Of a stretch of 35,451 bases of DNA, positions 1 to 21,336 are shown piece after piece. Numbering within the stretch: position 1 is the first letter of the stretch; every line of letters starts with the position of its first letter. Both the position numbers and the translations under genes were made by a program. Source of the DNA: a virus; IMG/VR virus record IMGVR_UViG_3300034062_000402, positions 1 through 35,451 of that record; one strand, given 5' to 3'. The notes beneath the pieces are model-generated. The model had not been told where the DNA came from. It searched no databases and saw only the letters and a program-made list of their open reading frames with translations.

Positions 1-359
1 TTATTGCTCATACAAACCCCATTATTCTTGACTCTGCGGGGCGAGTGCCAGGGGGCGAGATTTGGCTTGATTATGCAAGCCTGTATAAATTTGTTGTTAA
101 AACATCTACGGATGTATTGATAGCAACTTACGACAATGTAGGTGGTAGTTTTAATGCTAGCGCAATAATTGCTAATTTCACGGGCAATGGTTCAACGGTT
201 GCGTTTACTTTGGCAAGCAGTCCTGCTAATGAAAATTCAACAAATGTTTACATTAATGGCGTGTATCAGCAAAAGAATACTTATTCTGTATCTACCACAA
301 CATTAACGTTTTCTCAAGCCCCACCAACAACGTCATCTATAGAAGTGTCATACGTATGA
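1..359 (+). CDS. Tail fibre/spike N-terminal module, 5'-truncated copy
   Basis: The open frame runs into the window start, so the first ~47 residues are missing. The second copy at 34151-34651 shows the full length should be 166 residues. Visible pieces include AHTNPIILDSAGRVPGGEIW and VVKTSTDVLIATYDNVGG, a pattern common at the N-termini of phage fibres and reminiscent of the P22 tailspike head-binding domain (resemblance judged by eye). The C-terminal half is a small beta-rich domain ending ISYV-like (IEVSYV). Its TGA overlaps the next ATG as ATGA, implying coupled translation with the lectin-like fibre. Its probable role is to anchor receptor-binding proteins to the virion. Against the second copy it has many base changes but essentially one amino-acid change (Q to E in SQAPP/SEAPP). 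Confidence 0.75.
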   Translation, partial: IAHTNPIILDSAGRVPGGEIWLDYASLYKFVVKTSTDVLIATYDNVGGSFNASAIIANFTGNGSTVAFTLASSPANENSTNVYINGVYQQKNTYSVSTTTLTFSQAPPTTSSIEVSYV

Positions 360-1627
360 TTACCCCATCATTTGCATTGACAGCTACCGAGCGTGTTTTG
401 CCAAACATGGCGTTGGATTTTACAACCGCTGCGCTTGACCCTAGAGTGACATTTACACGCTCTGGCAACACCGCAACTGTTACAAACTCTAGTGGATATG
501 TTGTTCCCATTAACGCAAACTTGCCAAGGTTTGATTTTGATCCAATTGCATTAACTTGCAAAGGTTTATTGATTGAAGAAAGCAGAACTAATAATTTGCT
601 TTATGGTTCTGATTTAACACAAGCAACATGGACAAAAAATAGTGCTACTGTTGCGGCAAATGCAGCAACAGGGCCTGATAATACAACTTCAGCTTCGTCA
701 TATATTCCTGATAATGGCGCAACTGTTGAATGTTTGTTGGCCTCTGCAATTATAATAACAGCGAATAAAGATTTTACAATTTCAGGATTTTTTAAAAAAA
801 TAGGCAACGCCGCTGGGGTAGCATTATATACAAGCCAAAGCAATAACGGGTTTCGTATTGGGCTCGATTTTTCAACCGGATTAATTTCTTATGCCCAACC
901 TATTGGAACCGGCACATTGCGTAATTATGGTGTGCAAGCCTATCCAAATGGATGGTATAGAATTTGGGCTTCTGGAAGATTGGGAGTTGGCGGTGTAAAC
1001 GGGCAATTTAGATTTATATTGGCCGATGCAAATGGCGCAAATATTGCTGGAAATGGTACAGATGGTATGTATTTTTATGGCGGCCAATTTGAAAATTCTA
1101 CTGTTGATATTTCATTTGTTACTAGTTACATCCCCACAGTCGCATCAACAGTCACCCGCAACGCTGACGTAGCAACGATGACAGGGACGAACTTTAGTGA
1201 TTGGTATAAACAGGCTGAAGGAACTGCGGTTGTATCAACTACAACAAAACAAATCACTAATGAATTTGATTATGCAAATTTTGCACAAACTGGTTCTGAT
1301 GACAATAGAGTTAGATTATATTGCAGCGTAGGTAGTGCTGTTAATGTTACTCAAATAACAGCCGCCACAACAAGTTATTTTGTTATTGCTGGTGCGCTTG
1401 TGTTGGGCGATATTATTGTTGCTACAGGTTATAAAGTATCAGATAGCAATATGACACAAAACAAAACAAACGGTGCTGATAACACAAGCGTTGTTGCACC
1501 TACAAGTATTGATAAATTGTTTATAGGATGCTTTGTTGATAATGTAAACGTCATAAATGGATGGGTAAAGAAAATACAATACTACCCATACAGATTGACA
1601 AATGCTCAATTAGCATCAATAACTTAA
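356..1627 (+). CDS. Lectin-like tail fibre protein (variant A)
   Basis: 423 residues. The N-terminal ~85 residues (MITPSFALTATERVLPN onward) and the C-terminal part from about residue 255 are shared with the gene starting at 34648. The middle (~170 residues, about 611-1117) is unrelated to that copy. The middle has a concanavalin/LamG-like look (DFTISGFFKK, NGWYRIWASGRL, FYGGQFEN) and runs into the motif SYIPT...VTRNADVATMTG, which is frequent in phage fibre and head-spike proteins with a glucanase/lectin fold. Its likely role is host-surface glycan binding. It overlaps the preceding module by four bases, and a spike gene follows. Fold assignment is from motif style only, without a search. 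Confidence 0.75.
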   Translation: MITPSFALTATERVLPNMALDFTTAALDPRVTFTRSGNTATVTNSSGYVVPINANLPRFDFDPIALTCKGLLIEESRTNNLLYGSDLTQATWTKNSATVAANAATGPDNTTSASSYIPDNGATVECLLASAIIITANKDFTISGFFKKIGNAAGVALYTSQSNNGFRIGLDFSTGLISYAQPIGTGTLRNYGVQAYPNGWYRIWASGRLGVGGVNGQFRFILADANGANIAGNGTDGMYFYGGQFENSTVDISFVTSYIPTVASTVTRNADVATMTGTNFSDWYKQAEGTAVVSTTTKQITNEFDYANFAQTGSDDNRVRLYCSVGSAVNVTQITAATTSYFVIAGALVLGDIIVATGYKVSDSNMTQNKTNGADNTSVVAPTSIDKLFIGCFVDNVNVINGWVKKIQYYPYRLTNAQLASIT

Positions 1628-3639: not shown

Positions 3640-3930
3640 ATGAAACACCTTGAACATCCCGCATACGCTCTATTATTCATGGCCATCATTGGCTTGTTAA
3701 CTAACAATTGGTTAGCGGGGGCGATGTTGGGAGTTGGGTTCTTTTTAGGTCGTGAACACGCTCAGGCTGAATACCGTGTGATCCAAAAGTTCTATGAAGG
3801 CAAGCGAGCAAATATGCCTTGGTACGGTGGGTTTGAATCCCGTGGATGGGATTTAAAAAGCATATTTGACTTTGGATTACCAATCATTGTTACTACAATT
3901 GCTTTAATTATTATTAAATTTATAGGCTAA
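3640..3930 (+). CDS. Small membrane protein, two predicted helices
   Basis: 96 residues starting two bases after the spike stop. A hydrophobic segment at about residues 8-37 ([11 protein letters not shown]..., [13 protein letters not shown]) and another at about 77-95 ([19 protein letters not shown]) flank a charged, aromatic middle ([20 protein letters not shown]). The middle may face the cytoplasm. I do not recognise a named family. Similar two-helix proteins next to fibre genes are usually annotated as hypothetical, and a holin or superinfection-exclusion role is possible but unsupported. It sits between the spike and the gp4-like adaptor, within the late rightward unit. Confidence 0.75.
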
Positions 3931-16496: not shown

Positions 16497-16539
16497 TTAT
16501 GCACCTGTATGTAGTTAATGGCGTTGTTGCCATGTACAA

Positions 16540-16568
16540 ATATTAAGCTGTCTTAACAATACAATCAA
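16540..16568 (-). promoter_or_regulatory. Leftward promoter PL1 with operator copy 1
   Basis: On the minus strand: -35 TTGATT (16568-16563), 17-base spacer, -10 TAATAT (16545-16540). The 16-base operator GTTAAGACAGCTTAAT (16557-16542) covers the spacer end and -10; its core is the inverted repeat TTAAG-N4-CTTAA. It should drive the five small genes 16496 to 15643. The identical layout at two other promoters makes this unlikely to be chance. Confidence 0.8.
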
Positions 16569-16578
16569 GCAATATTAC

Positions 16579-16600
16579 TAGGTGTTTTCCCTAAGTGTTG
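16579..16600 (-). promoter_or_regulatory. Upstream box shared with the rightward promoter
   Basis: Read on the minus strand it begins CAACACTTAGGGAAAACACC and ends TA. It matches 19474-19494 with one substitution and one inserted base. It ends 10 bases before the -35 of PL1, against 21 bases at the rightward promoter. The 11-base difference is close to one helical turn, as for an activator site on the same DNA face. Confidence 0.6.
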
Positions 16601-18838: not shown

Positions 18839-18854
18839 GTTAAGATGGCTACAT
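18839..18854 (+). promoter_or_regulatory. Operator copy 3 at the regulator start codon
   Basis: GTTAAGATGGCTACAT matches the 16-base operator at 14 of 16 positions, with the second half-site imperfect. Its last two bases are the first two of the regulator ATG at 18853, so binding would block both transcription and access to the gene. TTGAGT (18817-18822) with TAAGAT (18841-18846) at 18-base spacing, or TTGACA at 18827, are candidate promoter elements. A weaker site at the regulator's own gene suits autoregulation. Confidence 0.65.
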
Positions 18855-19086
18855 GGAAAACATAGAAATCATACAAATTTTAGGCGGTACGACAAAGGTT
18901 GCCAGGCTATGCGGCGTGAGTGTGCCAGCCGTGAGTCAGTGGAAAGCTAACGGTATCCCTGTAGACAAGCTAGTTTTCATGGCTGGAGAGCTAGAGCGTC
19001 TATCCGATGGCAAGTGGACTAGACAAGACAACATTAACAATTGGAAAATTATTTGGCCTGAGTTGCGTAAAAAACGAAAATCGTAG
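18853..19086 (+). CDS. Cro/YdaS-like helix-turn-helix regulator
   Basis: 77 residues. ILGGTTKVARLCGVSVPAVS followed by QWKANGIPVDKL is a helix-turn-helix of the Cro/YdaS type (KVARLCGV as helix two, VPAVSQWKANG as recognition helix). The tail NNWKIIWPELRKK is typical of small phage Cro-like proteins. It lacks the C-terminal dimer/peptidase domain of CI repressors. It is the only obvious candidate to bind the four palindromic operators around it. It is transcribed rightward, divergent from the erf unit. No partner repressor was found, so a classic lysogeny switch is not evident. Confidence 0.85.
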   Translation: MENIEIIQILGGTTKVARLCGVSVPAVSQWKANGIPVDKLVFMAGELERLSDGKWTRQDNINNWKIIWPELRKKRKS

Positions 19087-19091
19087 ATAAT
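19063..19091 (+). promoter_or_regulatory. Candidate promoter for the structured RNA
   Basis: TTGCGT (19063-19068), 17 bases, GATAAT (19086-19091). The -10 fits well and the -35 only in its first three bases. It lies inside the 3' end of the regulator gene and would start transcription near 19098, just before the first hairpin of the RNA. Confidence 0.4.
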
Positions 19092-19097
19092 TGATCT

Positions 19098-19217
19098 GTA
19101 TTGTCGGAAATGGAACGCCGATAAGATAAGACCGTTTTATTCAATGTCCCGCCCCGAAAGGGGTTCAGCCTTAAAAAAGCTGCGTTCCAGAGGGGCATTG
19201 ACTAAAACGGTTTTTTT
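19098..19217 (+). ncRNA. Candidate structured phage RNA ending in an intrinsic terminator
   Basis: Hairpin 1: TTGTCGG (19101-19107) with CCGATAA (19118-19124). Long stem: ACCGTTTTA (19131-19139) with TAAAACGGT (19203-19211), a 2x2 internal loop, then CAATGTCCC (19142-19150) with GGGGCATTG (19192-19200). Inside this closing stem are CCCC-GAAA-GGGG (19152-19163, a GNRA-capped hairpin) and CAGC/GCTG (19166-19169 with 19179-19182). A run of T with one A follows. The loop of hairpin 1 contains TGGAACGC (with 19118), complementary to GCGTTCCA at 19182-19189 and able to form a pseudoknot. It may be an independent small RNA or an elaborate terminator of the regulator transcript. I cannot match it to a known RNA family by eye. 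Confidence 0.55.
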
Positions 19218-19473
19218 ATTTTTCCCGTACTCCATACGATAACAAGCACCTAGATGGGTGGCGTGGAACGGAACATAGGCTAGTCAACACCCGACTGCAA
19301 GCCTCGCTGACTTAACTGGGTACAGCACAAGACTAGAGTACATCGGTGGGACAAGACTCTAGCTCGATTGAACATTAACTCCGTGTAGGACTGGTATCTT
19401 AAAGATATGGGTCAGGTAGGAAAGCAGTAGGAAACTACAGGCTATCCACCCTTGGGAAAGTTATGTCTAAAAG
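19218..19473. other. Gene-free stretch between the RNA candidate and the rightward promoter
   Basis: No credible coding frame. Contents: a second copy of TGGAACG (19264-19270); a stem of CTAGAGT (19333-19339) with ACTCTAG (19356-19362) and a 16-base loop; a small palindrome TATCTTAAAGATA near 19397; and scattered GGGAAAG. This density of pairing suggests either more structured RNA or an origin region, but there are no clear iterons and no AT-rich unwinding block apart from the promoter itself. Confidence 0.4.
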
Positions 19474-19841: not shown

Positions 19842-20216
19842 ATGAGCTTTGATGAGTTCTGGTCTAAGTACCCTCGCAAAGTGGCTAAAAAGACCGCCAT
19901 GCAAGCGTTTGCCAAGTTACCTACAGTTGAGCAGGAATTGGCTGTTGATGCGTTAGACACGCATTTAGACTATTGGAAACTGAAAGAAACGGAATTCGAT
20001 TTTATTCCGCACCCCGCTACTTGGTTGAATCAAGGTAGATACTTTGACGAACTCGAGCTGACACCAAAAGCAATCAAAAAACCTGCATTGCCTTGGTACT
20101 CTACAGAACAAATGACAATGGACAAAGCTCGTGAATTAGCGATGAATCCCCGTCCTGGCGAGGACATGGGACAGTTTAGGGCTAGGATTGCACAGAAAAT
20201 AGCGGAAGCAATATGA
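19842..20216 (+). CDS. Replication-initiator-associated-like protein (short)
   Basis: 124 residues. MSFDEFWSKYPRKVAKKTAM, then QAFAKLP and DFIPHPATWLNQGRYFDELE, matches a segment (F-W-x-x-Y-P-R-K...PHPATWLNQGRW) found at the C-terminal ends of phage replication initiators and helicase-loader-like proteins. The DNA-binding N-terminal domain of those proteins is absent, so this may be a stand-alone module recruiting host replication enzymes. As the only replication-like gene seen, it could be the phage's link to host DnaB or DnaA; that is inference. Its TGA overlaps the next ATG. Confidence 0.65.
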   Translation: MSFDEFWSKYPRKVAKKTAMQAFAKLPTVEQELAVDALDTHLDYWKLKETEFDFIPHPATWLNQGRYFDELELTPKAIKKPALPWYSTEQMTMDKARELAMNPRPGEDMGQFRARIAQKIAEAI

Positions 20217-20489: not shown

Positions 20490-20707
20490 GAGATTTACGA
20501 GATTACACACAATTGCTCAGAGTATTGGACAACGGCTACCTATTGACGCATCAAGAAATGGCTCAAATTGCTGACATTATTCGAGCGTTGAAAGAGGACG
20601 CAGACCGTTACCGCTGGTTGAACCAAGCCACGCATCAACTGTTCATGGTGAGCGACAAACAGTTAAACGAACAGGTGGATCGTGCGATGAACGGTGGGCG
20701 AGAATGA
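20486..20707 (+). CDS. Small hypothetical early protein
   Basis: 73 residues: MRDLRDYTQLLRVLDNGYLL, HQEMAQIADIIRALKEDADR and YRWLNQATHQLFMVSDKQLN. The DADRYRWLN motif recurs in many small phage proteins without known function. Mostly helical. Start and stop both overlap neighbours by four bases. Confidence 0.72.
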   Translation: MRDLRDYTQLLRVLDNGYLLTHQEMAQIADIIRALKEDADRYRWLNQATHQLFMVSDKQLNEQVDRAMNGGRE

Positions 20708-21336
20708 GCTATATCGTTGCATCATTACCGCCAGTCAAATGCTTTGTGCGGCGTGAGTTTTTGTATAACTTTGAAAAAGGTCACGGCGAATACGAACTTG
20801 CAATCTGGGTAAGTCTAAAAGCGTTGCGTGGGCAAGTGTTCCGTATTGAGTCGTTGCTACCCGCCTACGGTGCGTTGTACGACAAGCTACCAATACACGC
20901 CTATGTCTGGCATACAAACACGCCTGAATCATTGCCTATTGACACGCTACAGCTTTGGGATTGCATGGGCTATAAGTTTACAGTCATTGAAAAGATTGGG
21001 CTGCGTAACCTTGGGGTCAAGTTTCTAGGCAAAGACAAGCAATGGCATTTTGGCAATTACCTGTTCACCGTAGATTTTTGCGCTGACAATATGGACGTAG
21101 ATACTGGATTCACGGAACAAGCTGAAGAACACAAGAGCTTCAACTTTATTAAGTTAGAAAACGGGCAATTTGCGATACAGCCAAATAACCGTTGCTTATG
21201 GTATGACCAGTCGCTAATTCCTGTTGAAACAAGATTTCCTGATTTTCAAGCAGCAAAAACAATTTGGACAGTAGACGGAACACGCAAATGGTCAGTTGGG
21301 GATGATTGGTTTTACAACGTCGAGGAACGAAAATGA
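20704..21336 (+). CDS. Conserved phage protein of unknown function, 210 residues
   Basis: MSYIVASLPPVKCFVRREFL, then NFEKGHGEYELAIWVSLKAL, YGALYDKLPIHAYVW, LQLWDCMGYKFTVIEK and WHFGNYLFTVDFC. The sequence pattern (LPPVKCFVR.E.LY...GHGE...WVS.K, then YGALYDKLPI) looks like a protein family I associate with environmental phages, never with a function. It is beta-rich and aromatic. In this genome it is the longest unassigned protein of the PR unit and is coupled at both ends (ATGA), so it is probably made early. Confidence 0.75.
   Translation: MSYIVASLPPVKCFVRREFLYNFEKGHGEYELAIWVSLKALRGQVFRIESLLPAYGALYDKLPIHAYVWHTNTPESLPIDTLQLWDCMGYKFTVIEKIGLRNLGVKFLGKDKQWHFGNYLFTVDFCADNMDVDTGFTEQAEEHKSFNFIKLENGQFAIQPNNRCLWYDQSLIPVETRFPDFQAAKTIWTVDGTRKWSVGDDWFYNVEERK

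Follow-up and report, generated by a model that had tools for sequence, protein, structure and literature searches.

The window analysed here, a stretch of 35,451 nucleotides of viral DNA (IMG/VR record IMGVR_UViG_3300034062_000402), raises the question of what is encoded between a small regulator gene and the early genes, at positions 19098-19217, where a branched RNA with a possible pseudoknot had been proposed from the letters of the sequence (the original prediction). Energy folding of this element, 120 bases on the + strand and referred to here as RNA A, gave a minimum free energy (MFE) of -47.4 kcal/mol compared with -27.9 +/- 3.5 for dinucleotide shuffles (z -5.5); none of 200 shuffles folded as well, and the MFE fold was also the centroid fold. 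The parts that had been proposed, namely two 9-pair stems, a 2x2 loop, a GNRA hairpin, a second hairpin and a T-run, were all recovered, with the fold as drawn in the MFE structure.

All of the following features lie on the + strand. Hairpin P1 (19101-19124) has 7 bp, TTGTCGG (19101-19107) with CCGATAA (19118-19124), and its loop, AAATGGAACG, contains the 5′ pseudoknot strand TGGAACG (19111-19117). P2 (19131-19211) surrounds the inner hairpins and is composed of a first 9-bp stem (ACCGTTTTA, 19131-19139, with TAAAACGGT, 19203-19211), a 2x2 loop (TT, 19140-19141, facing AC, 19201-19202) and a second 9-bp stem containing one G-U pair (CAATGTCCC, 19142-19150, with GGGGCATTG, 19192-19200). Inside it are P3, CCCC-GAAA-GGGG (19152-19163), and P4, CAGC-CTTAAAAAA-GCTG (19166-19182), followed by the 3′ pseudoknot strand CGTTCCA (19183-19189), which is complementary to TGGAACG and stays single-stranded in energy folding. 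The element ends in seven Ts (19211-19217) and has the form of an intrinsic terminator, a stem and then a T-run, with an 18-bp two-part stem and a non-canonical long branched loop; a scan for simple terminators misses it because this loop is too long.

Relatives were collected by comparing the 77-aa product of the upstream regulator gene with viral contigs, by DNA similarity to phage records, by a hairpin plus T-run pattern and by way of the DUF1376 replication protein, and these searches yielded more than 200 loci (given L-numbers). Several of them (L002, L004, L005, L015 and L016) had the same architecture in the same slot with quite different letters, and a descriptor script that required a long stem with a T-run at its end, preceded by a hairpin with loop bases able to pair within that stem, recovered many further members. 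Blast against phages and plasmids returned almost no matches besides MW202520.1 and MW202674.1. We distinguish two forms, for which we coined the names type I and type II. Type I, to which the window belongs together with L001, L004, L016, L022, L039, L041, L042, L047, L049, L052, L060, L066, L100, L104, L110, L117 and L122, has P1, a two-block P2, one or two inner hairpins, the partner strand of the P1 loop directly before the 3′ half of P2, and the T-run. Type II (for example L005/L124, L015, L018, L025, L032 and L152) runs in the order P1, linker, P2, hairpin P3, partner strand of the P1 loop, hairpin P4, 3′ half of P2 and T-run; its P1-loop partner strand stands between two hairpins, and the loop of P3 pairs back to the linker in a second pseudoknot. 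Both forms occur together on one contig, L104, at 101-210 (-) and 685-804 (-), about 475 nt apart. When 399 genomes of one order were searched with strict filters, type II was found at one prophage-like locus and type I at none; the genome that gave this sole whole-genome match shares its order with a betaproteobacterial metagenome-assembled genome (MAG).

The relatives bear directly on whether the fold is conserved. For type II, 14 diverse members were aligned with MAFFT without regard to structure (A3); in this alignment 95.3% of 555 cells were paired, both pseudoknots included, and 30 of 41 pairs had changed on both sides. When the partner strand was slid by 1-3 columns, pairing fell to 45% or less, and the covariation score, 0.58, was at most 0.11 in the slid versions. 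For type I, 87.3% of cells were paired in A7, an alignment of 16 members fitted to the nested structure, with the pseudoknot lying outside that structure; P2 showed both-sided changes in 15 of 19 pairs, P4 covaried, and P3 differed or was missing in other members of type I, while P1 and the T-run were retained. The type I pseudoknot was instead read by hand in 13 alleles, all of them distinct, each of which pairs with its own partner: on average 6.7 of 7 pairs formed with the allele's own partner strand compared with 3.4 with those of others (7 of 7 for the window allele), and none of 100000 permutations was as good. The otherwise nearly identical RNAs of L110 and L117 differ by GA/AG on one pseudoknot strand and TC/CT on the other, which amounts to two compensated pairs. 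Pseudoknots found with the descriptor are partly circular evidence, and members recovered with models that lack pseudoknot terms were taken as independent checks; seven such members (L039, L041, L047, L052, L100, L133 and L213) retain the pseudoknot.

The covariance model R3, from whose training set the window and its near copies were excluded, found 19098-19217 with an E-value of 6.9e-9 and 45.6 bits, the next match scoring 15 bits, and also matched type II members weakly; model R2 scored RNA A at 91.7 bits on the + strand and 34.5 bits on the - strand. The window RNA thus has the feature that defines the family, a P1 loop pseudoknotted into the terminator stem with covariation. Compensatory base changes were found in all helices including both pseudoknots, so that the proposed pairing between the upstream hairpin loop and the junction strand is real, and the view that this is a structured RNA exceeding what a terminator needs is borne out by covariation in many relatives and by the held-out model. 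Conservation of loop sequence is to be read with more care. The loop of P4 belonged to the search pattern, so its conservation is partly a matter of selection. A hairpin loop reading CCTTAAAAAAGG, considered as a conserved protein site, was rejected as an artefact of selection, because it had itself been specified in the search and is lacking in a number of members found through their protein, such as L128, L147, L152 and L158.

Since dozens of other phages preserve the knotted shape despite free sequence change, we conclude that RNA A represents a phage RNA family that is new, widespread and, judged from its pattern of change, very probably functional. In broad terms it belongs to a known kind, the structured leader or small RNAs; its pseudoknot architecture is unusual, and its association with replication initiators is striking. 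An elaborate but ordinary terminator of the regulator gene, with the remaining structure fortuitous, would fit the position of RNA A after that gene and its final T-run; it is nevertheless very improbable, given that covarying pseudoknots are not needed for termination and that the same RNA stands after unrelated genes in other phages.

Comparison with Rfam gave no family match to RNA A at the gathering score, and none at E <= 10 for the window and L005; matches to snoRNA and miRNA families were dismissed as chance, tRNA and tmRNA explanations were rejected, and no description of the family was found in the literature searched. Membership of the C4 antisense RNAs, which had been suggested from the position, is not supported. 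Neither the C4 covariance model nor any other Rfam family overlaps RNA A, whether at the gathering score or with E <= 10, and C4-like complementary targets elsewhere in the window were at chance level only. The recurrence of TGGAACG at 19264, to which attention had been drawn, does exist as a copy; it is absent from L049, which has the same pseudoknot, and from L110 and L117, and since it is not conserved in relatives it most likely reflects chance.

Upstream of RNA A lies the gene for the 77-aa helix-turn-helix regulator (18853-19086, +; phrog_35 transcriptional repressor, E 8e-11), whose stop codon overlaps the first base of a predicted -10 box, GATAAT (19086-19091, +). A predicted -35 box, TTGCGT (19063-19068, +), precedes it with a 17-nt spacer, and the same box and spacing occur in L004, L124 and L126. 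From these elements the transcript would start at about 19098, and this arrangement suggests that RNA A may have its own promoter instead of being processed, in the manner of C4, out of a longer transcript. A -10-like hexamer stands 4-8 nt 5′ of P1 in nearly all family members, mostly 17 nt from a -35-like hexamer, and L041 and L108 have near-consensus promoters (TTGACA-18-TATAAT in both); in a shuffle test the median p was 0.035 over 58 sites, and the window alone scored modestly, with p 0.065. The -10 box being fixed before P1 in nearly all members, each of them resembles a small RNA gene. The palindrome TTAAGNTNGCTTAA, with 0-2 mismatches, occurs at 16543, 18764, 18840 and 19528, near the divergent and early promoter regions, and is probably the operator of the 77-aa regulator; it is absent from the promoter of RNA A. 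In addition, 16532-16600 (-) is a repeat of the early promoter region.

Immediately after a type I RNA A comes a second structured non-coding stretch, RNA B. In the window this occupies 19222-19460 (+), shows both-sided changes in 18 pairs and adjoins an ATG at its 3′ end; it is conserved in L016, L060, L110 and L117, and its 5′ domain appears to be swapped between phages. An H-type pseudoknot was also seen in it by eye. Several sequence families, unrelated to one another, occur in the RNA B slot. In L004 (2057-2182) and L066 (3352-3477) it is filled, directly 3′ of RNA A, by Betaproteobacteria-1 RNA (RF02932), which is a different RNA and does not occupy the RNA A slot, and the slot gave no Rfam match in L022, L039, L041, L042, L049 and L052. 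In L045 and L119 a type II RNA is followed by a Betaproteobacteria-1-like RNA B, as type I is in L004, and the two forms therefore share one slot. L066 also has two tRNA genes just 5′ of its RNA A (3689-3838, -).

The genes further downstream indicate what such an RNA might control. Among 32 type II loci found by the pattern, and thus not chosen by their neighbours, about 20 have a replication initiator as the first open reading frame (ORF) downstream, and in about 7 others it comes second, behind an HNH, GIY-YIG or small ORF. The N-terminal families of these initiators, tested on examples and otherwise read from sequence, are non-homologous (DUF1376, Lin1244_N, phrog_26426, 16167, 2509, 10469 and 5810). 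In type II the RNA ends 10-16 nt 5′ of the start codon; the T-run is followed directly by the ribosome-binding site and this by the ATG, and the space between terminator and gene is too short for another promoter. RNA A is missing at about 60 of 77 DUF1376 loci, and a T-run just before the DUF1376 start codon was present at 17 of 17 loci with the RNA and at 6 of 60 without it. A recurring TGCCGATGTTTCTTT-like stretch was seen about 40 nt 5′ of DUF1376 genes lacking RNA A in L134, L139, L141 and L144. The type I RNA of the window is not adjacent to an initiator: RNA B and a 74-aa ORF intervene, and the second gene after RNA A and RNA B encodes a replication-initiation-like protein (19842-20216, +; phrog_270, E 8e-17). 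In L042 and L039 the type I RNA stands after an initiator-like gene. Other neighbours include an HNH or GIY-YIG endonuclease gene beside the RNA, usually between it and the initiator, in L018, L025, L075, L104 and L123, and, in the window, a match to phrog_3704 at 20704-21336, annotated as ferredoxin in the moron category (E 4.5e-75).

These neighbours weigh on two further explanations. The order promoter, structured RNA, terminator and gene is also that of RCd22/abiF (PMC12373285), in which sense RNA A could be the RNA antitoxin of a type III toxin-antitoxin or AbiF-like pair, with the terminator standing between it and the gene for the protein; the diversity of the downstream genes, which are unrelated replication initiators or homing endonucleases with no single cognate toxin, largely refutes this, and it is hardly tenable. 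A cognate toxin or Abi gene was not found 3′ of the RNA, where replication initiators and HNH or GIY-YIG genes were found instead, nor was a repeated RNA unit seen. It is rather improbable that RNA A is a free-standing small RNA acting in trans on host RNAs or proteins, with the initiators nearby merely because an early operon starts there. A predicted promoter and terminator of its own, a 5′ hairpin near the predicted start and a 3′ terminator that would confer stability, and varied genomic contexts would suit such a gene, but the tight 10-16 nt spacing to unrelated initiator families would be unexpected for it, and conserved unpaired bases are few.

Pairs of closely related loci showed how the RNA varies. 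L042 and L047 have flanks that are 97% and 99% identical around RNAs that are 69% identical; L133 and L015 are 98% identical upstream and 65% in the RNA, L044 and L128 are 100% and 79%, respectively, and L129 and L128 have flanks of 85% and 99% and an RNA of 79%. Between L004 (type I) and L119 (type II) the flanks are 81% and 95% identical and the RNA 54%, a replacement of type I by type II. Identity in the alignments breaks off near where the transcript is predicted to start, with a second break at the T-run. On this comparison the RNA is replaced as a cassette within near-identical flanks; recombination of the whole RNA, or rapid compensated change, would explain the contrast, and the neighbouring homing endonucleases may provide a neutral mechanism for the exchange.

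Such exchange, seen in L042/L047, L004/L119 and L133/L015, can also be read as the mark of an allele-specific RNA of immunity or incompatibility that acts in trans, the P1 loop or its partner strand pairing with a related phage's leader as it is transcribed and forcing termination before the replication genes, like P4 CI RNA or plasmid RNAI. The differing pseudoknot pairs of all 13 type I alleles, the type II P1 loops, which in A3 mostly read TTGG or TTGA and so have a YUNR-like start, the position 5′ of initiators and the lack of the regulator palindrome at the RNA's promoter are in keeping with this. Folding alone, however, also explains the complementary pairing, the targets in the window were not beyond chance, and neutral recombination can give cassette exchange, so that we regard this mode of action as possible but unlikely. 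If it were true, and the notion of a swappable module that governs initiators and recognises its own kind in trans through its loop and partner strand is a speculative one, RNA A would set superinfection immunity or incompatibility groups among phages independently of the protein repressor.

We favour, with a probability of roughly 0.5, the reading that RNA A is at once a phage small RNA gene and the leader of an early or replication transcription unit; an action as leader RNA before early genes is plausible from its position. Transcription would begin just 5′ of P1, the P1 loop would knot into the strand inside P2, P2 would close, and the polymerase would halt at the T-run. The product would be a short stable RNA, and downstream genes would be fed only by readthrough or antitermination; for that reason we propose that the RNA caps or times expression of the replication initiator. 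Fold, pseudoknot, family, position and cassette exchange are computed properties of RNA A. Promoter use, termination, accumulation and the effect on replication genes are what we infer from them. As to a riboswitch or attenuator, energy folding of the window element gave one dominant fold, and no antiterminator alternative to P2 was found in the window fold; regulated readthrough is therefore an assumption of this leader model. Two interchangeable pseudoknot topologies without an Rfam match, fixed just before non-homologous initiators, suggest that leader RNAs may gate replication in many environmental phages, and the cassette-like exchange between near-identical phages offers a concrete case in which immunity or incompatibility determined by RNA could be tested.

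Among known systems, the antisense RNAs C4 of phages P1 and P7 and CI of phage P4 are small structured phage leader RNAs that halt early transcription. RNA A differs from them in having no Rfam match and no conserved second complementary target. For IsrK of the Gifsy-1 prophage, a single promoter is the source of both a short RNA that ends at a terminator and a readthrough mRNA; the short form turns on translation of this mRNA in trans and thereby indirectly activates an antiterminator (PMC4825925). RNA A resembles IsrK in being encoded by a phage and in the proposed pair of short RNA and readthrough, with no family relation seen between them. To our knowledge, IsrK has no pseudoknot of the RNA A kind. 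The RCd22/AbiF leader of phage phi027 has a SigA promoter, an RNA of about 130 nt and an intrinsic terminator, and its gene is reached only by readthrough (PMC12373285); RCd22, however, is a repeat-bearing antitoxin-like RNA with one cognate protein, whereas the RNA A family is associated with many unrelated replication initiators. Finally, RNAI of I-complex plasmids exerts a loop-determined control of the rep leader in which one loop base can change compatibility (PMC10724649). RNAI and RNA A are alike in being RNAs in front of a replication initiator, but RNAI is an antisense RNA that inhibits translation, whereas RNA A lies on the same strand as the genes it precedes and carries a terminator.
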